DNA of 64,000 bases. Source: Ammonifex degensii KC4. Lineage in GTDB: Bacteria > Bacillota > Desulfotomaculia > Desulfotomaculales > Ammonificaceae. Location: positions 1,564,175 to 1,628,174 of the forward strand of contig NC_013385.1 in the NCBI RefSeq assembly GCF_000024605.1, written 5' to 3'. Below the pieces are notes generated by a model. That model was not told the DNA's origin and ran no database searches. It worked only from the letters and a program-made list of their open reading frames with translations. Numbering within the stretch: position 1 is the stretch's first letter; the number at the start of each line of letters is the position of its first letter. A program made the position numbers and the translations under genes. This document shows, piece by piece, positions 2,573 to 62,924 of the stretch.

Positions 2573-2583
2573 CGGCAACTTCT

Positions 2584-2608
2584 CCCCACTTATCCCCACC
2601 TTCACCCA
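2584..2608 (-). promoter_or_regulatory. MraZ operator: three TGGGN boxes at 10-bp pitch
   Basis: Read on the minus strand there are three boxes, TGGGT (2608-2604), TGGGG (2598-2594) and TGGGG (2588-2584), each separated by exactly five bases. This matches the MraZ binding-region pattern known from E. coli and Mycoplasma. It sits 12-36 bases upstream of the preferred mraZ start, so it is probably in the 5' leader and serves for autorepression. No convincing -35/-10 pair was identified upstream. Confidence 0.8.
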
Positions 2609-2766
2609 CCTGAATTCGCCGAGCAGGAAAAAATTCCTCCCGACCCGGTCCCAACAAATTTTGCCGGAGCGTAAATTCCGACCGTGGTCCCTGCAACTGG
2701 GCGTACTAAAGTCCCGGGTGGAAAGACATACTACCTAAAAAAGCGCACCTAAAAGGAGGAGAAGTA

Positions 2767-3150
2767 ATGTACCGTTGGCAGGAAGTCCAGGACCATCTGA
2801 ACCGCCTGCGGCAGGAGATTAACAACATAAGCCAGATGGTGATGCAACTGAGCCAGGCCGAAAGCCAGGCACAAAGTCAACTTGCCCGGCTGAGCCAGAC
2901 TGAAGGCATGAACAGCCAGCAGCTGCAGCGCATTCACCAGATGTGCTTGAGCCTGCACAACGAAATCAATGCTCTGGCCAGCGCCGCTCAAGCAATGATG
3001 CCCGGGGCCACAATGCCCGGCCAGTGGGGAGGCATGGGGGCCCAGACCTGGACCCCGGGAATGGGTTACGGGGGTAGCATGGCTTACCGCACCGAGGAAA
3101 CCGATATCCGCAGCGATATAGGAAACCTGGAGCAAAAACGCGATCTTTAA
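2767..3150 (+). CDS. Hypothetical protein with coiled coil and Gly/Met/Pro-rich tail
   Basis: A 127-residue protein I do not recognise. Residues 1-80 are strongly helical and Gln-rich with heptad spacing, suggesting a coiled coil. Residues about 84-108 are rich in Met, Gly, Pro and Trp (PGATMPGQWGGMGAQTW) and look flexible. There is no signal peptide or membrane segment. A good ribosome site (AAAAGGAGG) precedes the ATG. It is divergent from mraZ, and a clear terminator follows, so it is probably a single-gene transcript. Confidence 0.75.
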   Translation: MYRWQEVQDHLNRLRQEINNISQMVMQLSQAESQAQSQLARLSQTEGMNSQQLQRIHQMCLSLHNEINALASAAQAMMPGATMPGQWGGMGAQTWTPGMGYGGSMAYRTEETDIRSDIGNLEQKRDL

Positions 3151-3160
3151 GGAAACCAAG

Positions 3161-3200
3161 GCGGGGAGGTCCGACAAGGACCTCCCCGCTTCTCTCTTTT
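3161..3200 (+). terminator. Rho-independent terminator
   Basis: A perfect 12-bp stem (GCGGGGAGGTCC at 3161-3172 with its complement at 3178-3189), loop GACAA, then the T-rich TTCTCTCTTTT. It ends the transcript of the coiled-coil protein gene. Confidence 0.93.
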
Positions 3201-3262
3201 AGGGTCGTTCCCTTTTAACTACTTTTGTGTTATTGTATAGGCAAAAAAGGGAGGCGAAGGAA

Positions 3263-3505
3263 ATGATCAAGCTTTTGCGGGAGGGAACCACTTATACCCA
3301 AAAAGACGTCATCGAGATGCTGTCTGAGTTTTCCGCCTTCAAAGACCGGGTGACCAAAAAATTCCGGGAGGTGGCCAAAGAGTTGGAGGGGAAGAGTAAC
3401 GAGCACGAGCTGTGGGTAAACCTTTTCCTCATCGCTAGCGATTACGCCGACGACTGGCTCGCCCGCCGCCAGCGTCAAGAAGTGGCCCTGCAAAAGATCT
3501 CCTAG
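3263..3505 (+). CDS. Hypothetical small cytosolic protein
   Basis: An unrecognised 80-residue, charged, helical protein. The frame is open from a GTG at 3227, but the ATG at 3263 has GGGAGG eight bases upstream and is the likely start. No metal-binding motif, membrane helix or signal sequence is seen. It lies between the terminator at 3.2 kb and rpsT, which has its own promoter. Confidence 0.7.
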   Translation: MIKLLREGTTYTQKDVIEMLSEFSAFKDRVTKKFREVAKELEGKSNEHELWVNLFLIASDYADDWLARRQRQEVALQKIS

Positions 3506-3511
3506 AAGGGA

Positions 3512-3541
3512 TTGCGGCCCCCCGGTCAAGCATGGTAAAAT
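3512..3541 (+). promoter_or_regulatory. Sigma-A-type promoter for rpsT
   Basis: TTGCGG at 3512-3517, an 18-base spacer and TAAAAT at 3536-3541. The -10 box is preceded by TGG, an extended -10 arrangement. The rpsT start is 49 bases downstream. Confidence 0.65.
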
Positions 3542-3589
3542 ACGCACGTCATTCGAGGCGAAACAATCGGAGTACTAGGGGGAAGAGAA

Positions 3590-3859
3590 GTGGCTAAAAA
3601 ATCTTCGCTCAAGCGGTTGCGCCAAATCCGCAAGCGCACCTTGCGCAATAAGATGCTACGCTCAGCCTTGAAGACAGCCATCAAAAAGTTTGAGCAGGCT
3701 TTGGCGCAGGGAGCTCCCGATGTAGAAGAGAAGCTGCGGGCCGCCTTACGAGCCATCGACAAGGCCCGGACGAAGGGTATCTTGCACCGCAACACCGCGG
3801 CGCGCAAGAAATCACGCCTCATGCGTAAGTATAACCAAGCCAAGCTGGTCGCCAGCTAA
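3590..3859 (+). CDS. rpsT: 30S ribosomal protein S20
   Basis: An 89-residue, Lys/Arg-rich, all-helical protein with the S20 N-terminus (AKKSSLKRLRQIRKR) and the conserved KGILHRNTAARKKSRL segment. S20 binds 16S rRNA in the small-subunit body. It starts with GTG behind a GGGGGAAGAG ribosome site. It converges with holA, and the two stop codons share bases 3857-3858. Confidence 0.97.
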   Translation: MAKKSSLKRLRQIRKRTLRNKMLRSALKTAIKKFEQALAQGAPDVEEKLRAALRAIDKARTKGILHRNTAARKKSRLMRKYNQAKLVAS

Positions 3860-4866
3860 CCAGCTCCAGCTAGAAGCCAAGCCTGCCACAGACTGCGTTC
3901 CAGTCCCAGCCAGAAATCCCCTCGCCCACTTTTGAAGGCGGCGTCCAGTTCCACCAACTGTAAGTAAAGCTCTTGGGCCTGCTCGCGGGGAAAGCGGCGG
4001 GCATGGCCTAATATTTTTTTGGCCACCCAGAGGGGTATTTTCCCTTCCTGGGCCAGCTTTTCCTCCCCTCCTCCCTCCGCTAAGATCTCTTGGGCCAGGA
4101 GCAGGAGGCGCAGTTGGCGCAAAAAGAGGGCCAGAACCACTCCCGGAGGTTCTTTTTCCGCTAGCATACGCAGGCGACCAAGGGCTCGTAGGTACTGCCG
4201 CTGGCTCAAATCGTCGGTCACGCGGAAAAGGAGTTCCTCTGGCGGGGGAGTCACCACTTCTTCCACCGAGGAAGGGGTAATTTCTTTCTGCTCCCCGGCA
4301 TAGTTCAAGACCTTTTCCCATTCCTGCCGCAGGAGGGAGAGGTCCTGCCCCACACTCAAGAGTAGCCGAGCGGCTTCAGGGGTGATCTGCTTCCCGGCCT
4401 CACGGGCACGCTTCTGCAGCCAGCGCAAAAGGTCGGAGGGAGAGAGGTAGGTAAACTCCACTATCTTGCCTTTCTCCGCTAGCAGGCGGCAGGCCGGCTT
4501 CTGCCGGTCGATCGGGGCCGTGGTGCAGAAGATGAGACAGGTAGTGGGAGAGGGGTGGCGCAGGTAATCAAGCAAGGCCCTGTCCGCCTGCTTTTTACCC
4601 GCGGCAAAATAAGGAGCGTTATCTACCACCACCAGGCGCCACTGGGCCAGTACCGGTGAAGTGCTAGCCGCGGCGGCCACCTGTTCGCCCGAAGTTTCCT
4701 CTCCGTCCAGCCGGGCAAAGTCGAAGGGGTTGTCCTCCCCCACCAGCAGGGTCCTGAACCAGCGCACGGCCTCCTTCTGCAGGTAGCGCTCCGGCCCCCA
4801 AAAGAGGTAGAGGGGGCGAATCTCCCTCCGCTTCAGCTCCTCTAGCAACTCAAGAAAGTACTGCAC
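3856..4866 (-). CDS. holA: DNA polymerase III subunit delta (HolA)
   Basis: The delta subunit of the clamp loader, which opens the sliding clamp. The 336 residues fit the family. LYLFWGPERYLQKEA at the N-terminus occupies the place of a degenerate Walker A. The C-terminal part has the family's LLFRVTDDLSQRQYLRAL and QLYLQLVELDAAFKSG stretches. The GTG start directly follows the stop of the upstream thiamine-binding-like gene, with GGGGG before it, so the two are probably co-transcribed. Confidence 0.93.
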   Translation of the reverse strand: MQYFLELLEELKRREIRPLYLFWGPERYLQKEAVRWFRTLLVGEDNPFDFARLDGEETSGEQVAAAASTSPVLAQWRLVVVDNAPYFAAGKKQADRALLDYLRHPSPTTCLIFCTTAPIDRQKPACRLLAEKGKIVEFTYLSPSDLLRWLQKRAREAGKQITPEAARLLLSVGQDLSLLRQEWEKVLNYAGEQKEITPSSVEEVVTPPPEELLFRVTDDLSQRQYLRALGRLRMLAEKEPPGVVLALFLRQLRLLLLAQEILAEGGGEEKLAQEGKIPLWVAKKILGHARRFPREQAQELYLQLVELDAAFKSGRGDFWLGLERSLWQAWLLAGAG

Positions 4867-5172
4867 TTAGCTTTCCCCCAGCTCGCGCTTTACTGCCGCC
4901 ACCTTGCCTTCCAGGCTGAGTTCTTTGTCCCGGCGCTCATCGATCTTCACGGTAGTCACCACCCGCTGCACTCCCGCCGCAAAGGGGGCCAAGTGCATCT
5001 TCCGCACCAACTCTAGAATCTCCTCCAGCTCCCCCTCCACCAAAGTCCCCATGGCGGTTATCTCGTACTTAAGGCCGCTTTCCCGGACGATCTTCACGCA
5101 CTCGGCGACGTAACGCCCCACGCTGGGCGAACCCGTTCCTAGAGGAACCACCGAAATCTCGGCCACTACCAC
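4867..5172 (-). CDS. MTH1187-family thiamine-binding-like protein
   Basis: A 101-residue ferredoxin-like-fold protein of the MTH1187/YqgV family. Typical stretches are EISVVPLGTGSPSVGRYV, a central EITAMGTLVEGELEE and VVTTVKIDERRDK. Family structures bind thiamine-like ligands, but no pathway role can be read here and no thiamine operon is adjacent. It starts with GTG behind GGAGGGAG, immediately upstream of holA. Confidence 0.85.
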   Translation of the reverse strand: MVVAEISVVPLGTGSPSVGRYVAECVKIVRESGLKYEITAMGTLVEGELEEILELVRKMHLAPFAAGVQRVVTTVKIDERRDKELSLEGKVAAVKRELGES

Positions 5173-5231
5173 TTTTCTCCCTCCCAGAACTGAGCTTCTC
5201 CTTGCGTTTCTTAAATTTTATCACGTCCCGA

Positions 5232-5265
5232 AAAAGCTTTGCGCCCTCTCTTTAAGAGAGGGCGC
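5232..5265 (-). terminator. Rho-independent terminator
   Basis: A perfect 12-bp stem, GCGCCCTCTCTT, with a one-base loop (5241-5265), followed on the minus strand by AAAGCTTTTT. It lies just after the stop of the small winged-helix gene. Confidence 0.85.
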
Positions 5266-5280
5266 ACCCGATGGGAAAGC

Positions 5281-5574
5281 CTAACTTAACTCTTCCCACT
5301 TGGAGCGGTAGAAGGAGCAAAATTCCTCGCCCAGCTTGGTCAGGCTGCAAATCTTGCTCTTGCCCTCGGCGGTCACGTCTACCAAACCCAAAGCGTAAAG
5401 CTGCATCACCACGTGATCCAGGACCGCCCGTTTCACCCGGGCCATAAGCGAGAGCTCCTCTTTGTTCATGCGCCCACCGTCGCCCAAGGCGCGCAGCACC
5501 CGCCAGGCTTCTTCTGGGAGACGGTGGTTGACATAGGAGAAGTACTCGGAAAGAGGAGTCGCCAGGCTCAGCAA
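5281..5574 (-). CDS. Small winged-helix-like DNA-binding protein
   Basis: A 97-residue protein whose order of segments (EAWRVLRALGDGGRMNKEEL, LDHVVMQLYALGLV, SLTKLGEEFC) resembles a compact winged helix-turn-helix of MarR/ArsR type. No effector domain or metal-binding Cys cluster is visible. The TTG start has AAGGAGGG eight bases upstream, and a terminator follows the stop. Target and ligand are unknown; the DNA-binding call is inferred from the fold pattern. Confidence 0.65.
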   Translation of the reverse strand: MLSLATPLSEYFSYVNHRLPEEAWRVLRALGDGGRMNKEELSLMARVKRAVLDHVVMQLYALGLVDVTAEGKSKICSLTKLGEEFCSFYRSKWEELS

Positions 5575-5666
5575 AGGATCTTCCCTCCTTCAACCAAATA
5601 ATTAACTTTTCGGCTTTTATTATGCGCCAGTTTTTTGTTTTTTATAAAACCGCAAGCTTAGAAGAC

Positions 5667-5713
5667 CCGTCTCCTTCAGGGGACGGAACGATCACGGCGG
5701 CCTGGCCGCTTTT
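5667..5713. other. Two adjacent hairpins, possible relic of an IS200/IS605-type right end
   Basis: The first hairpin has an 8-bp stem (CCGTCTCC/GGGGACGG, one G-T pair) and a TTCA loop at 5667-5686. The second is GCGGCC-T-GGCCGC at 5697-5709, followed by TTTT. The first resembles the ACCCC-TTCA-GGGGT hairpin at the right end of the tnpB element at 28.5 kb. It lies between the rmlD-like gene and the small winged-helix gene, with no transposase nearby. It could instead be a terminator acting on the plus strand. Confidence 0.3.
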
Positions 5714-5770
5714 GCGAGGAAGTACGGTAAGCTTTGACACGCAGATGCCAATAAGGAACTCGTCCTTCCC

Positions 5771-6607
5771 TTAACGGCGAGCCAAGTACCGTTCCAGAGC
5801 GTCCTCCCAGGAAGGCAGGCTGTAGCCCAGGTACTCTTTGAGCGGGAAGGGATCCAGTACCGTGTAGCGGGGGCGGCGGGCCGGACGGGGAAAATCCTCG
5901 CTGCGACAGGGGATGACGTTAGCCTTGATGCCCGCCAGGCGCACGGCGCTGCAGGCCAGCTCGTACCAGGAGGCGGTTCCCGCGTTGGTCACGTGAAAAG
6001 TCCCCCTTGCTCCGGCCAAGATAAGGTCGGTGATGGCCCGGGCGGCATCGGGGGTGTAAGTGGGAGAACCGTACTGGTCCTCTACCACTTTTATTTCTCC
6101 TTCGGTTTCCGCCAAGCGCAAGATCATGCTCACGAAATTGCGCCCGGTGCCAAAAAGCCAGCTAATCCGTACGATCAGATAATCCCCGCCTTCCTCCCTT
6201 ATCGCCGCCTCCCCCCAGTATTTGCTCTCTCCGTAGCGGTTTATAGGGCGAGGAGGATCGTAAACGTGGTAAGGCTCCCCTTTTTCTCCGTCGAAAACAT
6301 AGTCGGTGCTTATGTGTACCAGCTTAGCCTCACTGGCAGCGCAAAGAGAGGCCAAATACTTAACCGCTAGACCGTTTACCAGAAAGGCCCGCCGGGGATC
6401 CTCCTCGGCCCCGTCTACATCGGTGTAAGCGGCGCAGTTGACCACCACCCGCGGCCGGTACTCCCTGAGGACTTCCGCCACCGCCTTGCGCGAAGTTATA
6501 TCTAGCTGCTGCCGCGCCAGCCCGATCACGTCAAAGCCGCGTTCCTCCAACTCTTTAACCATCGCCCGCCCTAGGCGTCCTGCGGCTCCCGTTACCAGCA
6601 CCCGCAC
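5771..6607 (-). CDS. rmlD: dTDP-4-dehydrorhamnose reductase-type sugar-nucleotide reductase (RmlD family)
   Basis: A short-chain dehydrogenase of 278 residues with the Rossmann motif GAAGRLG at residues 7-13, the STDYVFDG segment and the catalytic YGESK Tyr-x-x-x-Lys. In the dTDP-rhamnose pathway RmlD reduces dTDP-4-dehydrorhamnose with NAD(P)H. No rmlA, B or C is adjacent, so the sugar is uncertain; the family also contains MAT2B-like and other SDR reductases. The gene is alone between mqnD and a hairpin-rich spacer. Confidence 0.85.
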   Translation of the reverse strand: MRVLVTGAAGRLGRAMVKELEERGFDVIGLARQQLDITSRKAVAEVLREYRPRVVVNCAAYTDVDGAEEDPRRAFLVNGLAVKYLASLCAASEAKLVHISTDYVFDGEKGEPYHVYDPPRPINRYGESKYWGEAAIREEGGDYLIVRISWLFGTGRNFVSMILRLAETEGEIKVVEDQYGSPTYTPDAARAITDLILAGARGTFHVTNAGTASWYELACSAVRLAGIKANVIPCRSEDFPRPARRPRYTVLDPFPLKEYLGYSLPSWEDALERYLARR

Positions 6608-6619
6608 AAAAATCCCTCC

Positions 6620-7435
6620 TCATTCGACCCACTCTAAAGGTGGAAGATGGGGAATGATCCCTTGGCGGTGTCCTTCCTCCAGCAAAAGCCTCACTGCCTC
6701 TTTTCCTTTCGGCCCCAAGTCGAGCGTCCAGGAGTTGACGTACATCCCTACAAAACGATCGGCCTCTTTTCGATCCAGTCCCCGAGCAAAGGAAAGAGCA
6801 TAGTTTAGGCTTTCTTCCCGGTGGGCCAGAGACCAAGCAATGGCCTCGCGTAGAAGAGAAGACAGAAGGGAAGCTTTTTCCTGGTGGCGCCGGTGCAACA
6901 CGTTCCCTCCCAGAGGCAGGGGAAGGCCGGTTTTCTCTTGCCACCATACTCCCAGATCGACAACAAGTCTTAACCCCTCACGGGCATAGGTCAACTGTCC
7001 TTCGTGAATCAAAAGACCCGCCGGTACCTCTCCTGACTTGACCGCTTCACCTATGCGGTCGAAAGGAAGAGTGACCGTCTGCACCTTCGGGGACCAGAGC
7101 TTGAGAGCCAAGTAAGCCGTAGTCCACTCCCCCGGAACGGCCACCAAGGAGGGGGTTTCCCTTTCCTCTTCCCGCGTCACCACCACGGGACCGTAGCCAT
7201 CTCCTACACTGGCCCCGCAGGAGAGCAAGAGATAGTGCCGGGCTACGTAAGGATAGGCGTGAAAGGATATGGCCGAAAGGTCGTAAATCCCCTCCCTGGC
7301 CGCCCGGTTAAGCGTTTCGATGTCGGCCAGTACGTGCCGGAAAGTAAAACCCCGGGTATCGATCTTCCCCAGGCTTAGAGCGGCAAACATAAAGGCGTCG
7401 TCCGCATCCGGGCTGTGAGCCAAGGTAAGCTCCAA
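6620..7435 (-). CDS. mqnD: MqnD-type 1,4-dihydroxy-6-naphthoate synthase
   Basis: A periplasmic-binding-protein-fold enzyme of the MqnA/MqnD group. The signatures LAHSPDADDAFMF at the N-terminus and LSCGASVGDGYGPVVV fit MqnD, which forms 1,4-dihydroxy-6-naphthoate from cyclic de-hypoxanthine futalosine in the futalosine route to menaquinone. The 271 residues fit. The other mqn genes are not in the window, so pathway completeness cannot be judged. The TTG start has AAAGGAG upstream. It is divergent from ldh. Confidence 0.85.
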   Translation of the reverse strand: MELTLAHSPDADDAFMFAALSLGKIDTRGFTFRHVLADIETLNRAAREGIYDLSAISFHAYPYVARHYLLLSCGASVGDGYGPVVVTREEERETPSLVAVPGEWTTAYLALKLWSPKVQTVTLPFDRIGEAVKSGEVPAGLLIHEGQLTYAREGLRLVVDLGVWWQEKTGLPLPLGGNVLHRRHQEKASLLSSLLREAIAWSLAHREESLNYALSFARGLDRKEADRFVGMYVNSWTLDLGPKGKEAVRLLLEEGHRQGIIPHLPPLEWVE

Positions 7436-7570
7436 GGACTGCTCGCTCCTTTCCTTAAGGCTCGCTTTAACAGGACTTCTACAAAACTTGTCTTAGCCCT
7501 TCTCAGAACAGAGGGAATGCTGCAGCACGAGGAGAAACTAAAGGTAAACGGCATAAAAGGGGGACTTCTT

Positions 7571-8500
7571 ATGGCTAAGATCGCCATCATCGGAACGGGA
7601 TCGGTAGGAGCTACTGCCGCTTACGCGCTTATAGCCAGCGGGCTGGGAGAAGAAATAGTGCTCATAGATGTAAACCGCGCTAAAGCCGAAGGAGAAGCCC
7701 TAGACTTGGGAGACAGCACCGCCTTCACCACCCCGGTTAAGGTCTATGCAGGGGACTATCCGGATGCTAGCGATGCCGATCTTATTATCTTCGCCGCTGG
7801 GGCCAACCAGCGCCCCGGGGAGACACGGCTCGATCTCACCCAGCGCAACGTGGCCGTGCTGAAAGAGGTGGCAGGAAAGCTGGCTGTTCACTGGCGGGGA
7901 GGCATTTTGCTAATGGTGACCAACCCCGTGGACGTACTGACCTATGTAGCTTCGCGCCTACTCGACCTCGATCCCCAGCGAATTCTGGGCACAGGAACTA
8001 TTTTAGACAGCGCCCGCTTCCGCTACGCCCTAAGCCAGCATACCGGGGTGGATGCCCGCAACCTGCATGCCTACGTCATCGGCGAACATGGAGATACGGC
8101 CGTTCTCCTCTGGAGCCGGGCCACCGTGGCCGGCATACCCTTGGAAGACTTTTGCCGCCAGCGGGGTTTGAACCCGCCGGATAAGGAGCAGATCGACCGG
8201 TACGTGCGCCAGGCCGCCTACCGCATCATCGAGCGCAAAGGAGCCACCTATTACGCCATTGGGCTCGGGATCCGCCGCCTCTGCGAGGCTATTCTCAAGA
8301 ACCAGCACAGCGTGCTGACCGTCACCGGCCCCGTGGAGGGAACCTACGGCTACAAGGGCGTGGCCTTCAGCCTGCCCACCATCGTGGGTAGAGAGGGACG
8401 GCTTTTCTCCCTCGAGCTCCCCCTCTCCCCTCAGGAAGAAGAGGAACTCAAGCGCTCGGTGGATACTCTTCTGAAGGCGCAAGCCGAGGCAGGCTTTTAA
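7571..8500 (+). CDS. ldh: L-lactate dehydrogenase
   Basis: An NAD-dependent LDH/MDH-superfamily enzyme of 309 residues. It has the NAD motif GTGSVGATAAYAL and the catalytic HGD triad region (VIGEHGDTAV). The substrate-specificity loop AGANQRPGETRLDL carries Gln where malate dehydrogenases have Arg, which supports lactate. The ATG at 7571 has AGGGGG upstream. The frame extends upstream to 7415, but that part overlaps the divergent mqnD and lacks family similarity. It converges with the next gene, sharing stop bases. Confidence 0.95.
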   Translation: MAKIAIIGTGSVGATAAYALIASGLGEEIVLIDVNRAKAEGEALDLGDSTAFTTPVKVYAGDYPDASDADLIIFAAGANQRPGETRLDLTQRNVAVLKEVAGKLAVHWRGGILLMVTNPVDVLTYVASRLLDLDPQRILGTGTILDSARFRYALSQHTGVDARNLHAYVIGEHGDTAVLLWSRATVAGIPLEDFCRQRGLNPPDKEQIDRYVRQAAYRIIERKGATYYAIGLGIRRLCEAILKNQHSVLTVTGPVEGTYGYKGVAFSLPTIVGREGRLFSLELPLSPQEEEELKRSVDTLLKAQAEAGF

Positions 8501-8880
8501 GAACCTACCTCGGCCACGTAGTACTCTAGGAAGGTAAGGAGTTCTTCTTTGAGCTTATTCTGCTGGTAAATGCCCCAGCCGGCCGTGAGCATGAGGGGAG
8601 AAAAGATGAGCACCCCTGCTGCTCCTGCCGCTGCCTTGTCGAGCCATCGAGTGATCTGGGTGGAAACTTCCACCCCTTCTTCGCGTGGGCGCAGGTGAAC
8701 GGTAAAGGCGGCGGACATGCCTGCCACCTGCGCCCACGTCCCTCCCTTGCGGGCCTGCACTACCACCCCGGTCTCGTCCCTGAGTCTCTGGGTCTCGAAA
8801 CCCCGCCTTTTGAACCACAGCTCCACCGCCTGCCCCAAGTGCTCAGGGGTAAGCATAGTCCGGTAAATGCGTAGGCTCAC
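8497..8880 (-). CDS. Hypothetical protein with one membrane segment
   Basis: An unrecognised 127-residue protein. The first 85 residues look like a small soluble alpha/beta domain (FKRRGFETQRL, GTWAQVAGM, FTVHLRPREEGVEV). A single hydrophobic segment follows (about 88-107, AAGVLIFSPLMLTAGWGI) and then a short charged helix. It is probably membrane-tethered. It is encoded on the opposite strand to ldh with overlapping stops and lies 21 bases downstream of queA, so it may share the queA transcript. Confidence 0.7.
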   Translation of the reverse strand: MSLRIYRTMLTPEHLGQAVELWFKRRGFETQRLRDETGVVVQARKGGTWAQVAGMSAAFTVHLRPREEGVEVSTQITRWLDKAAAGAAGVLIFSPLMLTAGWGIYQQNKLKEELLTFLEYYVAEVGS

Positions 8881-8901
8881 CTTTTAGGCCACCACCTATC
8901 T

Positions 8902-9933
8902 TCAAAGGATTAACATGGCATCCCCGAAGCTGAAAAATCGGTAGCGCAAGCGCACGGCTTCCGCGTACGCGCGCAGGATCTTTTCCCTCCCGGCAAAAGC
9001 TGCCACTAGCATGAGGAGCGTGGAGCCGGGGAGGTGAAAGTTGGTCACCAAGGCGTCTACCACTTTAAAGCGGTAGCCGGGGTAGATGAAGAGGTCGGTA
9101 AAGCCCCTCCCAGCCCGGACGCGCCCTCGTTCGTCGGCCACCGACTCCAGGCAGCGGACCACCGTGGTTCCCACCGCCACTATTCTTCTTCCCTCTTCTT
9201 TGGCCCGGTTTACGGCCTCCGCCGTAGCCTCCGGGAGATGGTACTCCTCCGAGTGCATGCGGTGGGCGGTTATGTCCTCCTCTTTGACCGGGCGAAAGGT
9301 ATCCAGCCCTATGTGCAGGGTGAGGGTTACCACTTCCACTCCCTTTTCTTGAAGCTTTTGTAAAAGCTCTGGGGTGAAGTGAAGTCCGGCCGTCGGCGCG
9401 GCCGCCGAGCCGGGCTCAGAAGCGTAGACCGTCTGATAGCGCTCCGGCTCAGCCAGCTTCCTTTTTATGTAGGGAGGGAGGGGAATCTCCCCTAGCTGGT
9501 GCAGCAAGGCGAAGAAATCTCCTTCGTAAGTAAACCGGACGAGCCTCCCTCCACTTTCCAGGCGGCTCAGGACCTCCCCCCGCAAGAGCCCCCCACCGAA
9601 CACTATCCGGGTGCCCTCCGGCACCCGGCGGCCGGGGCGGACCAGTACCTCCCACAAGTCCGGTTCCAACTGCCTCAGCAATAAGACCTCCACTTTCCCC
9701 CCGGTGTCCTCTTTCACGCCGTAAAGGCGCGCCGGCAAAACGCGGGTGCGGTTGAGCACCAGTACGTCCCCGGGCACTAGATACTCCGGCAGGTCGCGGA
9801 AGAGCCGGTGCTCGAACTCCTCCCGGTCGCGGTAAACCACCATGAGCCGCGACTTATCTCTTTCCGGCAAAGGTTCCTGCGCAATGAGCTCCTTGGGCAG
9901 ATAGTACTCGAAATCGCTGCGTTTAAGTGCCAC
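8902..9933 (-). CDS. queA: tRNA preQ1(34) S-adenosylmethionine ribosyltransferase-isomerase QueA
   Basis: QueA transfers and isomerises the ribosyl group of SAM onto preQ1 in tRNA wobble position 34, giving epoxyqueuosine. [32 protein letters not shown]-like [11 protein letters not shown] and [15 protein letters not shown] are family signatures. I chose the GTG at 9933 (343 residues), which has GGAGG ten bases upstream; the frame is also open to a GTG at 9954. QueH, the next enzyme of the pathway, is encoded in this window at 52.6 kb. Confidence 0.96.
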
Positions 9934-9981
9934 CGCCTTTTTAACCTCCGGCACTATTTTAACACTCCCTACCCATCTTAA

Positions 9982-10011
9982 TTGACAAATTCTTCAGCCG
10001 AAAGTTAAAAT
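9982..10011 (+). promoter_or_regulatory. Sigma-A-type promoter for the universal stress protein gene
   Basis: A perfect TTGACA at 9982-9987, an 18-base spacer and TAAAAT at 10006-10011. The start codon is about 40 bases downstream behind AAAGGAGGG. Confidence 0.8.
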
Positions 10012-10049
10012 GAAGCCAATCGCAAGCTCTTTAAAGGAGGGTTTTGCCA

Positions 10050-10478
10050 ATGCGGAAGATCCTGGTGCCGGTAGACGGTTCGGAAAACTCCCTGCGCGCC
10101 CTGCGGGAAGGGATCAAACTGGCCCGAATAAGCGGCCAGGCCAAGCTTACCATCCTCACCGTGGTACCGCCGGTAGATCCCACTTTCGAGTACGGTCCCT
10201 GGCTTACCCGGGAGCAAGTGGAGGAAGCCGAAAAGAAGGCTGCAGAAAAGATATTGGACCAGGCAGAAAAGGTAGTTCAGGAAGAAGGATACCAGGCAGA
10301 CAGGGTGGTGCTGGTGGGAGATGCAGGGCAGGAAATCGCCGACTACGCGGCCAAGGAAGGCTACGACCTCATAGTCATGGGTAGCCGGGGCATGAGCCCC
10401 CTCAAAGGAATATTTTTAGGGAGCGTGAGCACCAAAGTCATCGCCCTCGCTCCCTGTCCGGTCGTGATCGTAAAGTAG
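10050..10478 (+). CDS. Universal stress protein, UspA family
   Basis: A 142-residue single-domain protein with the N-terminal KILVPVDGSENSLRAL strand-turn and the ATP-binding signature GSRGMSPLKGIFLGSVS near the C-terminus. ATP-binding Usp proteins act in stress survival, and the exact role is not deducible. The ATG at 10050 has AAAGGAGGG eight bases upstream, and a strong promoter lies just before. A hairpin follows the stop. Confidence 0.93.
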   Translation: MRKILVPVDGSENSLRALREGIKLARISGQAKLTILTVVPPVDPTFEYGPWLTREQVEEAEKKAAEKILDQAEKVVQEEGYQADRVVLVGDAGQEIADYAAKEGYDLIVMGSRGMSPLKGIFLGSVSTKVIALAPCPVVIVK

Positions 10479-10484
10479 AAGCCT

Positions 10485-10503
10485 CCGGCTTTAAGAAAGC
10501 CGG
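10485..10503 (+). terminator. Hairpin after the usp gene, possible terminator
   Basis: An 8-bp stem CCGGCTTT/AAAGCCGG with an AAG loop seven bases past the usp stop. No good T-run follows on either strand, so termination is uncertain. It overlaps the end of the small membrane-protein gene on the other strand. Confidence 0.45.
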
Positions 10504-10664
10504 GCAGCCAAAAAGCTTAAGAGATAAAGAAAACCCAGCGAACCAGCGGTCAAGGCCAAAACCCAAAGGTCGGTGGTAGAAAGCTCCATTCTATCTGCTT
10601 GCCGGCGCCAGAAAGTCTGCTTATCCTTGCTTGCTACCCCTAACTCTAGCGCCCTTTCCTTCAT
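10491..10664 (-). CDS. Small single-pass membrane protein
   Basis: A 57-residue protein starting at an ATG at 10664 with GGAGGAAGG just upstream. The N-terminal half is charged. Residues about 33-54 form one membrane helix (WVLALTAGSLGFLYLLSFLA) near the C-terminus, as in tail-anchored proteins. Homology is not recognised. The open frame extends upstream to 10745, but that part has no ribosome site. The stretch from 10665 to the trmI end at 10855 holds nothing else I can identify. Confidence 0.5.
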   Translation of the reverse strand: MKERALELGVASKDKQTFWRRQADRMELSTTDLWVLALTAGSLGFLYLLSFLAARLS

Positions 10665-10854
10665 TAATCCTTCCTCCCCCGGGAAAAAAATTGGGCGCGA
10701 CCGCCGGTCCTTACCCCGGCGGCCTACCACGATAGAGGGTTTCACCCCTACTTATTGCAAAAAGCGTGCCAGAACCTCCGCCTTTTCCGTTACTTATCTT
10801 TCCCCGCAAGGAGGAAGACCACTGCTTAAAATTTGAACACCAGTGTTTAAAAAG

Positions 10855-11646
10855 TTAACAGTTCTCTTCCGAGGAGCGAACAACCTTGCGGGCGAAGACC
10901 AAAAAGCCCGTATGTCCTACCATACGATGATAAGGGCGCACGCTCTTCCCCTCTACCTGCCAGTGACGCACTAATACTTCTAAAGACTCTATCAAAGCAA
11001 AGCTTTCCCTCTCCTCCATCGCCTTGATCAGCTGATCCACCTGAACGATAGAGGGCACGTAGGCGGAGAAGATTCCGCCGGGCAAAAGGGCAGCCTCCAC
11101 CGTATCCAAGGCCCGCCAAGGTTCGGGCACGTCGAGCAAGACCCGGTCAAAATCTTTCTCAGGGATAGGCTCGTAGATGTCCCCCAGCTTAAGCTCCAGC
11201 CCGGAAAGCTCTCCTAGGAAGTTTTTTACATTCTGCTCCGCCCAGGCCAGCATGTCCTCCCGCACATCGTAGGCCACCACCCTGCCTGTCGGTCCCACCT
11301 GGCGCAAAATGGCAATGAGCAAGGCCCCACTTCCCACCCCGCCACAGAGAACCCTCGCCCCGGGGAAAATATCTGCCCACACCAGGATGATAGCTACATC
11401 CTTGGGGTAGATAATCCCGCTTTTACGCGGCATGTTGAGGGTGTAGTCCTTAGTAGAGGGATAAAATACCAGAAACTCGCGCCCAAGGGAAGATTTCACC
11501 ACGGTGCCGGCCGGCGCCCCTATGATCTGGTCGTGGTCGATGTAGCCCTTGTGGGTGTGGAACCTTTTACCTGGGGTTAGTCGTTGCAAAAAATAACTCC
11601 CTTTGGGATCGACAAGTATCACTAGGTCGCCTTCCTTGAAAACCAA
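10855..11646 (-). CDS. trmI: tRNA (adenine(58)-N(1))-methyltransferase TrmI
   Basis: A SAM-dependent enzyme that makes m1A58 in the T-loop of tRNA, a modification important for thermostability. It has an N-terminal beta domain (residues 1-70), the family linker KSGIIYPKDVA, SAM motif I read as CGGVGSGALL and DRVLLDVPEPW. The 263 residues fit. ATG start. It stands alone between two divergent or unrelated genes. Confidence 0.93.
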   Translation of the reverse strand: MVFKEGDLVILVDPKGSYFLQRLTPGKRFHTHKGYIDHDQIIGAPAGTVVKSSLGREFLVFYPSTKDYTLNMPRKSGIIYPKDVAIILVWADIFPGARVLCGGVGSGALLIAILRQVGPTGRVVAYDVREDMLAWAEQNVKNFLGELSGLELKLGDIYEPIPEKDFDRVLLDVPEPWRALDTVEAALLPGGIFSAYVPSIVQVDQLIKAMEERESFALIESLEVLVRHWQVEGKSVRPYHRMVGHTGFLVFARKVVRSSEENC

Positions 11647-11766
11647 ACCTTTCCCCCCTCCCTACTTCTCCGATAAGTTTAACAAGCCCCTTGCCTCCAG
11701 GCCAAGGAGGGAGCAAAATAGAAGCAAGCGAAGTTTGAGAATCTGGTAGCAAGGAGGAAAACGCAA

Positions 11767-12108
11767 GTGGAAGAAGAACTTTTTCTTCCCCCGGGAATGA
11801 AGCCGATAATCCATAACCTGGCCAGCGAGCTCGTGCTAAACCCCGGAGAAGAGAAAGTTTTTCCCGAGCTCAAAAGCCGGCTGCTCAACGCCAACTTCCG
11901 TATCAAGACTGATGGTAAGCTTATCCTCACCCTGGAGGAGAACCTGGACTCGAACTGGGTAGCCACCGACAAGACCGCTTGCCACGAAGGGGTTACCCTC
12001 TGGCAGTGCCTACTTAAAAAGTCTACCTTCCGGACACGGGTGAAAAACCCTACAGACAGAAAGGTGCAGGTGACTTTGGATGTGCTCATCCCAGAGATCG
12101 AAGGGTAA
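11767..12108 (+). CDS. Hypothetical protein
   Basis: An unrecognised 113-residue soluble protein, probably mostly beta (VFPELKSRLLNANFRI, KLILTLEENLD, KVQVTLDVLIPE). It has two Cys (TACHEGVTLWQCLL), not arranged as a known metal site. The GTG start is nine bases after AAGGAGG. The alternating pattern and the RTRVKNPTDRKVQVTLDV stretch suggest an immunoglobulin-like beta fold; this is only a fold impression. Confidence 0.65.
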   Translation: MEEELFLPPGMKPIIHNLASELVLNPGEEKVFPELKSRLLNANFRIKTDGKLILTLEENLDSNWVATDKTACHEGVTLWQCLLKKSTFRTRVKNPTDRKVQVTLDVLIPEIEG

Positions 12109-57899: not shown

Positions 57900-58574
57900 T
57901 CACAGGTCAAGATAGGCAAAGAAGGCCAGCCATAAGAGCAGAAGGGCTAGGAAGCTTACGGGCACGGGCTGGCGGCAGAAGACCTGGCGCAAAAGCTGCG
58001 CGATGGGAGCCAAAGGGAAAAGCCACATCAACTTCCCCAGCCAGAAAGGCAAGCAGTCGAGGGGAACGAAGGTACCGCTAAGAAAGCTCATGGGGATGAG
58101 CAGGAACTCGCTGATGAGGGCCTGATCGTCAAAAGAACGCAAGCATAGGCCCAGGAAGACGCCAAAAGCACCACAGGTCACCGCTACCGGAACCAGCCAG
58201 AGAAAGATCTCCCCGGGGATCCGGAGTCCCGGGACGACGACCCAGGAGAGAAAGAGCACCACGAGGCCGGTAAAGAAGCTGCGCAGAGCGCCGGTCAGGA
58301 CGAACCCCCACCACAGGGAAAAGGCACTTATGGGAGTCAGGCGGTAGGACTCGAAGGTTTGAAGGTGTAGGCGGCTGTAGAAGAGCCGGATGATGAGGAA
58401 GGAGACAGCGTTGTTGAAGACCGCCAGGGCCACCACCCCTGGCACCAGAAACTCCAGGTGGCTCACCCCGCTAGGAAGAGAAACGCGCAGAACGCAACCT
58501 CCTCCACCGCCCCGAACCTGCCCACCGACGCCATTGCCGTCACCTGGGGCCGCACGTTTTTCTATCCCCACCAC
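57900..58574 (-). pseudogene. ABC-2 type permease, 5' part missing or frameshifted
   Basis: From FLVPGVVALAVFNNAVSF onward the frame has five or so membrane helices and the ABC-2 pattern (YRLTPISAFSLWWGFVLTG, FLLIPMSFLSGTFVPLDCLP). The first 40 codons are Gly-rich (GGQVRGGGGGC) and unlike a permease; a normal member would have another membrane helix there. An alternative frame just upstream encodes VEEVAFCAFLFLAG and ends at a TGA near the join, so a frameshift at a GGGG run is possible. No partner ATPase is adjacent. It may be a decayed gene or an unrelated short permease. Confidence 0.6.
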
Positions 58575-59713
58575 TGTCGCTTTTTCTTGATTAGCAAGTA
58601 GATAAAAAAGGGGGACCCCATAAGCGCGGTGATAATTCCTACCGGAATTTCCGTCGGCGCAACGAGGGTCCGCGCCAGGGTATCAGCCAGAAGTAGAAGC
58701 ACCGCACCCATGAGGCAGGAACAAGGGATCAGAAACCGGTTGTCGCTGCCGACAAGCATCCGGCAGATGTGCGGCCCCACCAAGCAGACAAACCCAATGA
58801 TGCCGGTGAAGGCCACCGTAGCTGCAGCAGCAAGGGTAGCTAGACTCAGGGTGTAAACCCTCAGGCGCCCCACATTTATCCCTAAGCTGGCTGCCACCTC
58901 CTCCCCGGCCCCCAGGACGTTGAGGTCCCAAGCACGAAGGCACAGTCCGGCCATGCAGAGCAGCACTACCGGGGTAAGCAGCATCACCGTCCGCCAGTCC
59001 GCTCCCCAAAAGCCGCCCATCAGCCAAACAACAAGTTCTTTCAGAGCCTCGTTGTTAGAAACGTATTTCAAAAGCGAGACACCAGCTTGAAAAAGGTAAC
59101 CAATGGCCACCCCGCCTAAAACCAACGTCTCGGGCGACATCCCCTTAAACCGCGCTAGGGAGAAAGCCAGGAGCGTGGTCAACCCTCCAAAAATGAAGGC
59201 GTTGGTAACAATGAGCCACCGCGATACTTCAAGGTAACTCCCGCCCGCCAGGCCTGTCCCCAGCACAATGGCCAAAGCCGCCCCAAAAGCCGCACCACTC
59301 GAAAGACCTATCGTGTAGGGAGAAACCAGCGGGTTGCGCAACACCCCCTGCATCACTGCCCCAGCCCCCGCCAAGCTTATCCCGGTAATGGTGGCCAGCA
59401 GAATGCGGGGAAGGCGGATTTCCCAAACTACCGTCTCGGCAAGGTCGGTTACCGGAACTGTCTTTATACCCAGGTGTGCCAGTATCACACGCCAAACCTC
59501 AGGCACGCTTATTCCCGCTGCACCCACAGAGGTAGCAACCAGAGCTGTGGCCATAACCAAGCCAAGCAGAACCGCTACCCCAAAAACCTTACGGCCGATA
59601 TTACGGGAATAAGTGGCTTTTATCGCGGCGACCTGACTTTCCCAAGCCATACTGCTCATCTCAGCAGTGGGTAAACCCATACGCTCCTGAGCCCCCATAA
59701 ACTTCTTAGGCAC
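58562..59713 (-). CDS. FecCD/BtuC-family ABC transporter permease
   Basis: A 383-residue, ten-helix permease for siderophores, heme or corrinoids. Family stretches are LPRILLATITGISLAGAGAVMQGVLRNPL (in parts RLPRILLATI, AGAVMQGVLRNPL), GVSLLKYV, LGINVGRLR (the coupling loop) and FVCLVGPHICRMLVG. The GTG at 59713 lies eight bases past the DUF2149 stop; later in-frame ATGs are possible starts. Its ATPase partner is probably the gene at 62.1-62.9 kb, separated from it by the CobN-like, ExbB-like and DUF2149 genes. Confidence 0.92.
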   Translation of the reverse strand: MPKKFMGAQERMGLPTAEMSSMAWESQVAAIKATYSRNIGRKVFGVAVLLGLVMATALVATSVGAAGISVPEVWRVILAHLGIKTVPVTDLAETVVWEIRLPRILLATITGISLAGAGAVMQGVLRNPLVSPYTIGLSSGAAFGAALAIVLGTGLAGGSYLEVSRWLIVTNAFIFGGLTTLLAFSLARFKGMSPETLVLGGVAIGYLFQAGVSLLKYVSNNEALKELVVWLMGGFWGADWRTVMLLTPVVLLCMAGLCLRAWDLNVLGAGEEVAASLGINVGRLRVYTLSLATLAAAATVAFTGIIGFVCLVGPHICRMLVGSDNRFLIPCSCLMGAVLLLLADTLARTLVAPTEIPVGIITALMGSPFFIYLLIKKKRQWWG

Positions 59714-59720
59714 CCCGTCC

Positions 59721-60038
59721 CTACTTTGTAATCATAAACATTCTTCCTGTCTCGGGGTCTTTGAAAACTGTACCCACTTTTTCATACATTTTTCCTTCTC
59801 CTCGAGTTTCAATGAGATCATGTCGCACTTCTGGAAGCTGTGAAACATCCCTTCCCAGTCTTATGTCCACTCTCTCCCCTTTGTGAGCAAGGTTGATATT
59901 CCAATAGAGGGCCAGTGCTAGCATCAATCCACAGGCAAAGACTAGCATGGCATCTACAATGTTAATTGCTCCTTCTAGAGGATTAACGTCCCCTGCTGCC
60001 TGTAGCAACCTCCTTGTGCTCCGTAACCTTCCCTTCAC
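59721..60038 (-). CDS. DUF2149 protein with an ExbD-like membrane segment
   Basis: A 105-residue protein. Residues about 19-48 read NPLEGAINIVDAMLVFACG then hydrophobic to Trp 48, a single membrane helix with an Asp at 29. This recalls the N-terminal helix of ExbD/TolR/MotB, where one Asp carries protons. The rest (about 49-105) is a small soluble domain. The GTG start follows GGAGGTG and overlaps the ExbB-like gene by 56 bases. DUF2149 has no assigned function; a stator role beside the ExbB-like channel is my inference. Confidence 0.85.
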   Translation of the reverse strand: MKGRLRSTRRLLQAAGDVNPLEGAINIVDAMLVFACGLMLALALYWNINLAHKGERVDIRLGRDVSQLPEVRHDLIETRGEGKMYEKVGTVFKDPETGRMFMITK

Positions 60039-60678
60039 CTGCCAACACCTCCAGCAGAGATTCCATAATCGTTTCTAGAGTACTCAGGTAATCCTCATAC
60101 CACCTCTTCCGCACTTGAGAGATAACAAAAGCAATCGCTGCTGCGGCCAAACCAATCACCGTAGCATCGAAAGCAGTTAATAACGATTCTGCTAGTTTCT
60201 GTATATTGCCTTGGCTTAGAGCAATTAGGCCCGGTCCCAGAGGGATAAGGGTTGCCATTAAACCCAACATAGGACCCAGGCGAGCAACAGTATCTGTACG
60301 GCCCGTAATCTTAGCGTAATGCAATTCCTCCTTAGTTAATAGCTGCCGGGCAAGGGCTTGAAGTGATGCCACGGGCAGGTCATGGTGTGCTAAAAGTTCG
60401 TTCAGCGCATTTTTCTGGCGTCGGGTAAGTTCACTTTGAGAAACTAGGTTCTTGATTTTTTCGGGATCGCGCTCCTTCCGGAATTGCTGGAGTAGGTCAG
60501 CAATATTGACTATAATTTTTCTTCCATGCCGCTCTCTTAGACACTCTACCACCAAACTTCCTAACTCGGCCACGGAAAAGACGATGAAAAACAGCAGCAC
60601 GGCAATGGTTGGTGCCAGTAAGCTGTAAGAAAATACGTGCATTAGCTCTCGCAGAAACTTTAAACTCACCGAGTCCAC
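59983..60678 (-). CDS. MotA/TolQ/ExbB-family proton channel protein
   Basis: A 231-residue protein with three membrane helices: about 15-38, then after a cytoplasmic region of about 90 residues, 130-155 and 165-190. The conserved block reads VARLGPMLGLMATLIPLGPGL and LLTAFDATVIGLAAAAIAFV, the TolQ/ExbB signature. These proteins use the proton gradient to drive a partner across an envelope. Gram-positive cells usually lack TonB-type systems, which makes its place beside an importer notable. It overlaps the DUF2149 gene by 56 bases. Confidence 0.93.
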   Translation of the reverse strand: MDSVSLKFLRELMHVFSYSLLAPTIAVLLFFIVFSVAELGSLVVECLRERHGRKIIVNIADLLQQFRKERDPEKIKNLVSQSELTRRQKNALNELLAHHDLPVASLQALARQLLTKEELHYAKITGRTDTVARLGPMLGLMATLIPLGPGLIALSQGNIQKLAESLLTAFDATVIGLAAAAIAFVISQVRKRWYEDYLSTLETIMESLLEVLAGEGKVTEHKEVATGSRGR

Positions 60679-60680
60679 CT

Positions 60681-62021
60681 TTATGCCTCCCTCGCGTATT
60701 CTAGGTATCTTTTGCCCGCACCAAAGAAAAAGGGCACTAACAGTCCGATAGCAGCAACTAAAGGTGAGTTATTCTTCTTCGGCACAGCAAGCTGTTCGCA
60801 GGTTTCTACCTCGAAAACACGCGGTTCTGGGCTTTCTGACACACCTCCTTCTGGGGTGCTTGCGCTCTTACTAGCTCCTGTGTTTTTTGATTTGGCAGAA
60901 GGTACTTGTGGTGCTTTTTCTACTTCTCCTTCAGCTGCGGTTTTTTGCCTGGTATCTGCAACGCTGCTCTCCGCTAGTTTCGTCCCAGAAGCGTCCTGGC
61001 CGAAGGCATCTGGAACACCTCTACCAAGATCTTTGCTACCACCTATAAATTCATCTAACCCACCGCCGCCAAATTTTTCCAGAGCCGCCCTCAGACCTCG
61101 TAGGTAAGTATATTCCAGCGGCAAATCGTCTTGATCCAACACATCTTCCTCACTATAAGCGTGGACAAGTACATTACACCCCTTGAGCAGTTCCTTAAAA
61201 ATTCCGGGCTGGTTAGCTCCCCAGTTCGTTTCAGAATAAGCATTACCTATCCGATTTATAAACTGATCAGCTATTTTTTCTGGATCTTGGGCAGAATCTA
61301 TTACCCTTACCCCTGAACCGTATTCCCCCACGGGAGGAGCAAAAATCCCGGACACCGCCAGTGCACCGGCCTCCTTGTCCTGATGACCTGCAGCAAGCAA
61401 CTTCCGCACTGTCACCACCCACCGCGTGGCGACATAGTTTGATTCTAAGGGATCCTTCCCTTTCACGAGAAGCCCAGCCTTTTCCAGGGGAACAAGCGTA
61501 GCGTCTAATGCCGACTGCAGTTCAGGATAAGCCGAGACAATGCTCTGATAAGAAGACGCCAGAGCCAGGCGGTACGCCCTGTCGAGCAAAACGATCTGGT
61601 TTTGGAAAAGATCGCGAAACGAGCCTGTAGCCACCATTACTATGTCAATACGCGGCCGACCCAGTTCACCAAGACTTACCAATTCCAGACCGATTACTTT
61701 TCCCGAAAGATCCCACTTGGGCCTAACCCCGAGTAGGGCAAGGGCAAACGAGACCATTGGCCCTTCTTTTCCTGTCGTCTCCATACCCCACAACACCGCT
61801 GCCACCCGCGAAGGATAACGGCCTTTTTCTGTTCTAAACTTGTTTATGGTTTCACGGGCCATTTTCTCGCCTGTCGCGTATGCCTCCCGAGTAGGATACC
61901 TTTCGGGGTCCAGGGCCACTTTAACTCTTCTGTCAAACTGTTGGCCAAGGGCAAGCGAATCAAAGCCGGAAGCAAAAAGGCAGATTGCCAGTAGCACCAA
62001 GAACCACTTCCAGCCACGCAA
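60681..62021 (-). CDS. Exported CobN-like protein with C-terminal membrane anchor
   Basis: About 446 residues from a TTG at 62021, ten bases after AAAGGAGG; the frame is open to 62051. A signal peptide (WKWFLVLLAICLFASGF) leads to a region resembling the C-terminal part of CobN/magnesium chelatase H: RYPSRVAAVLWGMETTGKEG, LALLGVRPKWD, ELGRPRIDIVMVATGSFRDLF and LDQDDLPLEYTYLRGL. A low-complexity linker rich in Ser, Ala, Glu and Lys (about 345-405) ends in one membrane helix and a basic tail. CobN inserts cobalt in corrin synthesis in the cytosol; an exported partial copy more likely binds a metal or tetrapyrrole. Confidence 0.88.
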   Translation of the reverse strand: MRGWKWFLVLLAICLFASGFDSLALGQQFDRRVKVALDPERYPTREAYATGEKMARETINKFRTEKGRYPSRVAAVLWGMETTGKEGPMVSFALALLGVRPKWDLSGKVIGLELVSLGELGRPRIDIVMVATGSFRDLFQNQIVLLDRAYRLALASSYQSIVSAYPELQSALDATLVPLEKAGLLVKGKDPLESNYVATRWVVTVRKLLAAGHQDKEAGALAVSGIFAPPVGEYGSGVRVIDSAQDPEKIADQFINRIGNAYSETNWGANQPGIFKELLKGCNVLVHAYSEEDVLDQDDLPLEYTYLRGLRAALEKFGGGGLDEFIGGSKDLGRGVPDAFGQDASGTKLAESSVADTRQKTAAEGEVEKAPQVPSAKSKNTGASKSASTPEGGVSESPEPRVFEVETCEQLAVPKKNNSPLVAAIGLLVPFFFGAGKRYLEYAREA

Positions 62022-62099: not shown

Positions 62100-62924
62100 T
62101 TACACTTGTGCACCCACTTTACGCAGTTGCGGGTCCTTGTCTTGTGCCGGGATACCCACCGGTGCTACCGGTATCACCTGCAACCCCCACTGAGTTTCGC
62201 TGACTACCGCCTCAACGCCGTAGGTCGCACGAATGTTTTCCGGCGTGAGTACCGCTTTGGGGCTTCCTGCTGCGAAAATACGCCCTTCACACAAGAGTAT
62301 AAGGCGGTCGGCAAAGCGGCTAGCTAGATTGAGATCGTGCAATACCATCACTACTAGCCGGTCTTTGCTTGCAGCAAATTCCCTTATGAGACTAAGCACC
62401 TCAAGCTGATAACGGAGATCTAGCGTGGCTGTTGGTTCATCTAAAAGAAGCACCTCCGGCTCCTGAGCTAGAGCACGGGCAATGAGAACTTTTTGCCTTT
62501 GACCGCTCGACAGTTCTTCGAGCTGCCGCTCCGCCAGATCGGTCAGTCCCAAAAAGGCAAGAGCGCTGGTTACCACCGCTAGATCGCGCTGGCTTACCCC
62601 CCAGGTCAGGTGGGGGCGACGACCATGGAGCACCGCTTCGAGCACGGTACAAGGAAAAGGGCTTCCCGTACCCGGTGGGGGAACATAACCCAGGTATCGT
62701 CCAACTTCCCGTCCAGGCAGTGAAGCGAGGTTCTTCCCATCCAGGAGAATTGCCCCCACACGGGGCTTTAGCACCTTCGCTAGACATTTGAGCAGGGTTG
62801 ACTTGCCGGAGCCATTCGGCCCCACGATACCGAGCACTTCGCCGGCTCGCACTTTAAAGGTGACATTTTCTAGCGCAGGTATACTACCGTACGCAAAGGA
62901 CACTTCCTCGACTTGTAAACGCAT
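62100..62924 (-). CDS. FecE/BtuD-type ABC transporter ATP-binding protein
   Basis: A 274-residue ATPase of an iron, heme or cobalamin-type importer. Walker A is VGPNGSGKSTLLK, the Q-loop region YLGYVPPPG, signature LSSGQRQKVLIARAL, Walker B VLLLDEPTATLD and the switch His in MVLHDLNLA. The tail (IRATYGVEAVV) is typical of this subfamily. It is the first gene of the group with the CobN-like, ExbB-like, DUF2149 and FecCD genes. No substrate-binding protein gene is visible downstream. Confidence 0.93.
   Translation of the reverse strand: MRLQVEEVSFAYGSIPALENVTFKVRAGEVLGIVGPNGSGKSTLLKCLAKVLKPRVGAILLDGKNLASLPGREVGRYLGYVPPPGTGSPFPCTVLEAVLHGRRPHLTWGVSQRDLAVVTSALAFLGLTDLAERQLEELSSGQRQKVLIARALAQEPEVLLLDEPTATLDLRYQLEVLSLIREFAASKDRLVVMVLHDLNLASRFADRLILLCEGRIFAAGSPKAVLTPENIRATYGVEAVVSETQWGLQVIPVAPVGIPAQDKDPQLRKVGAQV

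Follow-up and report, generated by a model that had tools for sequence, protein, structure and literature searches.

The closest described systems are the hmuYRSTUV loci of Bacteroidota, in which the DUF2149 protein HmuV is encoded next to HmuU, a protein of the MotA/TolQ/ExbB type, and near a CobN-type protein that has a membrane helix at its C-terminus. Iron-responsive hmu operons that include a DUF2149 protein and an ExbB protein are described in the available portion of one paper (PMC10434189). According to the available excerpts of a paper from 2023, HmuV is homologous to ExbD and acts by way of TonB to drive HmuR; the protein is stated to be diagnostic of heme transport (PMC10100974). 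The TonB role of HmuU/HmuV is repeated, also in a figure legend, in the accessible parts of another paper (PMC12583661), and the accessible part of a paper from 2026 describes HmuV as having no homology to any known family (PMC13227078). The idea that DUF2149 is ExbD-like is therefore partly in print already for Bacteroidota. In the portions of the literature at hand, we found neither a proposal that the DUF2149/ExbB pair drives CobN or HmuS directly nor a description of the shared C-terminal tail presented below; ExbB and DUF terms were looked for in PMC6460266 and none are present.

Here, we describe a DUF2149 gene of Ammonifex degensii KC4 within a stretch of 64,000 nucleotides (the window). 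Whereas Bacteroidota with hmu loci possess an outer membrane, HmuR, and HmuY according to the literature, neither a TonB-dependent receptor (PF00593) nor Omp85 (PF01103) is encoded in the genome to which the window belongs, and therefore a TonB role cannot explain the pair encoded in the window. A further difference is that the CobN-derived protein of the window lacks both catalytic histidine regions and that its tail motif differs. The DUF2149 proteins of the two Bacteroidota-group loci L143 and L144 carry an aspartate at the position equivalent to Asp29 of the A. degensii protein.

Genes around DUF2149

On the minus strand of the window, the order of transcription is stalk protein, ABC ATPase, CobN-derived protein, ExbB-like protein, DUF2149 protein, and FecCD permease (Table 1), and the junctions from the CobN-derived gene through the permease gene are tight or overlapping. 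Past the window end, two BtuF-type binding proteins (PF01497) and a complete CobN of 1293 amino acyl residues with no evident secretion signal are encoded in the same direction. The NCBIfam models that fit the ABC ATPase best are those of F420-0, corrinoid, and heme importers, all of them with scores below the cut-off. Because of the gene families present, the operon looks like one for the handling of metal-tetrapyrroles or corrinoids.

Table 1. Features of the DUF2149 locus, in window coordinates
Feature	Position	Strand	Remarks
Stalk protein	62993 to beyond window end	-	first in transcription order
ABC ATPase, corrinoid/heme/siderophore type	62100..62924	-	PF00005, 111.9 bits
CobN-derived secreted protein, 456 aa	60681..62051	-	PF02514, 191.7 bits, profile positions 718-974 of 1090; proposed driven partner
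Tail module of the CobN-derived partner	60684..60821	-	VFEV motif, membrane helix, GAGKRYLEYAREA; alignment A3
ExbB-like channel subunit, 231 aa	59983..60678	-	PF01618, 39.9 bits (cut-off 22.9)
Thr143 of the ExbB-like protein	60250..60252	-	corresponds to E. coli ExbB Thr148; Thr in 57/57
Asp171 of the ExbB-like protein	60166..60168	-	Asp in 53/57; Leu179 in E. coli ExbB
Thr173 of the ExbB-like protein	60160..60162	-	corresponds to E. coli ExbB Thr181; Thr in 55/57
DUF2149 gene, 105 aa	59721..60038	-	GTG start at 60038, stop 59721-59723; PF09919, 36.1 bits (curated cut-off 27.1); proposed ExbD-like B-subunit
Single membrane helix of DUF2149, residues 20-46	59901..59981	-	AlphaFold2, block-mean pLDDT 67-87; hydrophobicity
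Asp29 codon of DUF2149	59952..59954	-	GAT on the minus strand; proposed ion-carrying residue
C-terminal motif of DUF2149, YEKVGTVFKDPETGRMFMITK	59724..59786	-	predicted to be extracellular; beta-hairpin weakly predicted
FecCD/BtuC-type permease	58562..59713	-	PF01032, 313.4 bits; 7 bp past the DUF2149 stop

Hydrophobic segments at both ends of the CobN-derived protein suggest a signal peptide and a C-terminal membrane anchor. The protein aligns to neither of the histidine regions (GTHG and the C-terminal HHTC) to which a catalytic role in chelatases is assigned in the available text of PMC12583661, whereas both regions are present in the full-length secreted CobN proteins of loci L095 and L086. 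As both regions are missing, we rejected the view that the fragment works as a chelatase; a role in binding a tetrapyrrole or passing it on is more likely than one in changing the metal. CobN and ChlH, which work with the AAA+ motors CobST and ChlID, offer an analogy to this neighborhood in that a motor assists a chelatase-type protein; in contrast to these systems, the partner is predicted to be outside the cell and the proposed source of power is an ion gradient, not ATP. A second CobN locus of the same genome (G000:C1:1187815-1193871; L130-L132, L134, L136) is split over several frames, has one in-frame TAG within a matched stretch, and seems to be frameshifted or degraded.

The ExbB-like partner and the relation of DUF2149 to ExbD

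The AlphaFold2 model of the ExbB-like protein is of high confidence (pLDDT 90.7). In a Foldseek search against the PDB, all 50 matches listed are ExbB, TolQ, or MotA/PomA-type stator chains, and with VIA-align 2 the model superimposes on E. coli ExbB with a Z score of 13.9 (203 residues, 4.2 A); a Z near 13 can be unspecific for helical proteins, although here stator proteins occupy all of the top 29 rows. Z scores of about 8 to 11 are obtained with MotA/PomA and ZorA chains, so that the fold predicted for this subunit is the same as in MotAB, ZorAB, and other ion-driven stators, from which the system differs by a very short B-subunit, DUF2149, with no peptidoglycan-binding or other large domain. 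The threonines corresponding to Thr148 and Thr181 of E. coli ExbB, which we take to line the channel, are both retained. Glu176 of E. coli ExbB is not retained in this subfamily, which has a family-specific acid of its own, Asp171, two residues ahead of the channel threonine Thr173. The predicted fold, the PF01618 match, and both channel threonines assign the protein to the ExbB/TolQ/MotA group.

The DUF2149 protein is small and its AlphaFold2 model is of low confidence (pLDDT 59, pTM 0.26), comprising the membrane helix, a disordered linker (residues 52-82), and a weak C-terminal hairpin, the strands of which (86-88 and 91-93) are predicted at low confidence. Within the C-terminal motif, G89, V91, D94, T97, and G98 are conserved in the alignment. 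The initial annotation had described a single membrane helix carrying Asp29 in INIVDAMLVFA and an overlap with the ExbB-like gene. The former is confirmed by the AlphaFold2 model and by hydrophobicity, as there is one hydrophobic helix and the best 19-residue Kyte-Doolittle window, at residue 27, reaches 2.26; the overlap amounts to 56 bp. It had also required that the soluble part should not be cytoplasmic, and that Asp29 should be conserved in an alignment. In all 60 members of alignment A2, the N-terminal side is richer in lysine and arginine than the 20 residues past the helix (on average 5 versus 2.15), and because of this positive-inside charge bias the C-terminal part is predicted to be outside the cell, where the ectodomain of the neighboring secreted protein would also lie. 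Conservation was likewise borne out: Asp29 is invariant in the 19 rows of alignment A1, which consists of close relatives, and the helix position is always acidic in a sample of 56 DUF2149 proteins (55 Asp, 1 Glu). This sample contains all distinct Pfam-profile matches in whole genomes, including the protein of the window; 55 of them were tabulated (54 Asp and 1 Glu; 52 of the Asp were read by script, those of L143 and L144 by eye) and the 56th (L139) has Asp. The count was restricted to proteins found with the Pfam profile in order to avoid circularity, since 80 contig loci had been retrieved with a pattern that contains the aspartate. The gene of the Glu-for-Asp variant, represented by L103 and again by L138 (G216:C50, positions 7799-10406), lies in a cluster that also includes genes for ExbB, an ECF-type transporter, and surface proteins with DUF3344; of the latter, one has a C-terminal helix and is encoded directly before ExbB. 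This setting differs from that of the other loci.

Profiles of DUF2149 and of the ExbB subfamily match one and the same set of 17 among the 60 related genomes (Fisher p 2.6e-15, with genomes treated as independent). The spacing between the two profile matches is 29-73 bp in 19 of 20 cases; among these 19 adjacent pairs, that of G038 (L022) is a degenerate remnant. G028 is the exception: the ExbB gene beside DUF2149 is deleted there, and another copy exists elsewhere in the genome. An intact ExbB gene adjoins DUF2149 at 52 of the 55 profile-found loci (51 by script, plus L008 of G053, where it is 41 bp away), the remaining three being L014, L022, and L105, and an ExbB match is present at 79 of the 80 pattern-found contig loci, that of L093 being partial and at a contig end. 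No natural fusion of ExbB and DUF2149 was seen among the open-frame lengths of the loci examined. The obligate pairing of DUF2149 with this ExbB subfamily, outside any TonB system, is a new element. In Pelotomaculum terephthalicicum (L051, positions 3700-4400), the ExbB gene between the partner and DUF2149 is missing, and the same is observed at L187 of G028.

To what extent is DUF2149 an ExbD? As in ExbD and TolR, there is a single helix with the N-terminus inside and a conserved aspartate early in the helix (glutamate in one member), and the gene directly follows that of an ExbB/TolQ partner. In contrast to ExbD and TolR, DUF2149 has no significant sequence match to the family, no outer-membrane target, and no folded periplasmic alpha/beta domain of the ExbD type: only 58 residues follow Asn47, of which residues 52-82 are modeled as disordered at low confidence, whereas the E. 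coli proteins ExbD and TolR have about 98-100 residues beyond the helix. The absence of a recognisable ExbD, stated in the initial annotation, extends to the entire genome (99.59% complete), in which PF02472 has no match, whereas 5 of 14 control genomes do have one. The ExbD profile does not match the DUF2149 protein of the window up to E 1, no ExbD match in Pfam was obtained among 60 DUF2149 members at E 10, and the DUF2149 profile has no match among PDB sequences up to E 10. The profile-profile comparison that the annotation had suggested did not establish homology. It gives a score of 19.1 with an HHalign probability of 2.3%, and although aspartate is aligned with aspartate in the correct register, this score is also attained when the helix columns are shuffled, in 41 of 200 cases, and the comparison was rejected as evidence of homology to ExbD. 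Of 100 shuffles of the whole alignment, 1 attained the score, and the reversed profile scored 9.9. By the Pfam, PDB, and profile-profile comparisons, membership of DUF2149 in the ExbD family is not demonstrated, and the single helix stretch appears too short to choose between distant homology and convergence. The proposal of the annotation that DUF2149 is an ExbD-like stator subunit therefore stands in part: the functional likeness is supported by the aspartate, the topology, the pairing, and the channel threonines of the partner, whereas homology and an ExbD-type periplasmic domain are not. A resemblance to ExbD in arrangement, topology, acidic residue, and partner is well supported.

Surface proteins encoded beside the pair

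At loci of the type present in the window, the gene directly before that of ExbB codes for a secreted protein with a varying ectodomain, which consists of a CobN fragment (window, L023), is Ig-like (L029), contains list-type repeats (L083), has no Pfam match (L071), or is molybdopterin-domain-like with Fn3-associated and Ig-like domains (L024). Common to them is the C-terminal end, comprised of a VFEM-like motif, a helix, and then roughly G-x-G/S-R/K-R-Y-x-E-Y-x-R/K-E; this likeness is weaker in Family XIII loci. Among 53 such proteins encoded upstream of ExbB (eight window-type loci with no upstream ORF by the rule applied were left out), a C-terminal helix is present in 51 and is combined with the motif in 44, compared to 184 and 40, respectively, of the 629 other genes of the loci. 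A profile of the tail matches 8 of the 60 genomes, namely eight of the nine with a window-type DUF2149 and none of the 51 others, and 10 of its 13 matches lie beside DUF2149. The shared tail on exchangeable surface partners is likewise a new element.

In a second locus type, a complete secreted CobN is encoded after DUF2149, and 8 of 10 of these CobN C-termini have a helix with a related AYE(I/L) motif; of the two that failed the motif test, the ORF end of L084 looks to be in the wrong frame and the gene of L099 runs to the contig end. In the HmuS-like proteins encoded at the two Bacteroidota-group loci, the C-terminal helix is present and the tail motif is absent. At L024 (positions 2256-12052), five neighboring secreted proteins with similar domains are encoded, some of them weakly to moderately similar to a molybdopterin oxidoreductase domain. 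At L095, a locus of the second type, a DUF2162 predicted transporter is encoded before ExbB (positions 6671-7348), in the place that HmuT has in Bacteroidota.

A candidate ion-driven motor and its alternatives

We propose that DUF2149 is the B-subunit of an ion-driven stator of the ExbBD/TolQR/MotAB type and works like ExbD. One or two DUF2149 helices would be located in the pore of a presumably pentameric ring of the ExbB-like protein, and Asp29 would face the ring threonines from a position close to the cytoplasmic end. Protonation and deprotonation of Asp29, coupled to an ion flux, would shift the helix and, via the short flexible linker, the small C-terminal beta element outside the cell, possibly as a torque. 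With no outer membrane to serve, the motor would act on the neighboring tail-anchored surface protein, here the CobN-derived domain, through contact with the conserved VFE(M/V) segment, the helix, and the R-Y-x-E-Y tail of the partner, and its probable task would be to help in loading or releasing a metal-tetrapyrrole (e.g., heme or vitamin B12) for the adjacent BtuFCD-type importer. The sequence features, the topology bias, the acidic residue, the pairing, the ExbB fold, and the common tail are results of the analysis, and the stoichiometry, the ion flux, the torque, the target, and the substrate are inferred from them. We put the probability of this reading, worded in this way, at roughly 0.7. 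Taken on its own, an ExbD-like stator role of DUF2149 is very probable, while for the tail-anchored proteins as the target of the motor we consider the odds about even. Several results count against the reading, namely the profile-profile score that does not exceed the helix-shuffled controls, the lack of ExbD matches in Pfam and of PDB sequence matches, the low confidence of the DUF2149 model, the three tail matches with no ExbB or DUF2149 gene close by, the deletion of the local ExbB gene in G028, and the three DUF2149 genes with no intact ExbB gene adjoining. In addition, the available text of PMC12583661 reports that HmuS of B. theta strips iron from heme in a dialysed lysate with NADH present and no ATP, so that the chemistry itself seems to need no motor.

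The very short outside part, in which AlphaFold2 predicts no confidently folded domain, and the lack of demonstrable homology to ExbD would also suit a subunit with a structural or assembly role, one that carries no ions and either anchors the tail-anchored surface protein to the ExbB-like ring or positions it there. Such a pure anchor would need neither the in-helix acidic residue, kept in all 56 proteins, nor the channel threonines, which speaks against this explanation and makes it unlikely. Still less probable, and in our opinion very improbable, is that HmuU/HmuV-type proteins are merely the ExbBD of a TonB system that energises outer-membrane heme receptors, as proposed for Bacteroidota in the available text of PMC10100974 and in the figure legend of PMC12583661. 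With its lack of TonB-dependent receptors and Omp85, the A. degensii genome refutes this there unless it has an undetected outer membrane; moreover, most of the loci are from Bacillota and some from Actinomycetota, with other surface partners, and the DUF2149 profile matches the control genome of Methanosarcina acetivorans. Pairs of the HmuU/HmuV type are thereby separated from TonB, as they occur with no sign of an outer membrane.

A question compatible with the stator reading is whether DUF2149 is truly homologous to ExbD, having diverged and lost the periplasmic domain, or resembles it by convergence. Several DUF2149 proteins share IDVMLV with E. coli ExbD, the aspartates pair in HHalign, and the gene order after ExbB is the same, but the similarity does not exceed that of the helix-shuffled controls, and we regard true homology as plausible, at a little under an even chance.

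The stator reading offers a testable function for a domain of unknown function and a possible explanation of how a CobN-type protein outside the cytoplasm might be powered without ATP. The shared tail would be a sequence handle for finding other proteins driven by the same motor. More tentatively, and with somewhat more doubt than confidence, one may envisage that ion-driven motors of a hitherto unrecognised class are widespread in cells lacking an outer membrane (Bacillota, Actinomycetota, and probably archaea). In these motors, DUF2149 would be the minimal rotor within the ExbB ring, and the surface proteins driven, exchangeable and anchored at the C-terminus, would be of the CobN-type, molybdopterin-domain-like, Ig-like, or DUF3344 kinds. 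Proton energy would in that case act directly on extracellular tetrapyrrole handling and on other surface tasks, in place of the ATP motors that serve cytoplasmic chelatases. Three of the 13 tail matches (L193, L194, and L195) have no ExbB or DUF2149 gene within about 1.5 kb, one of them lying near a contig end, and these tail-bearing surface proteins are possible extra clients of a distant motor.
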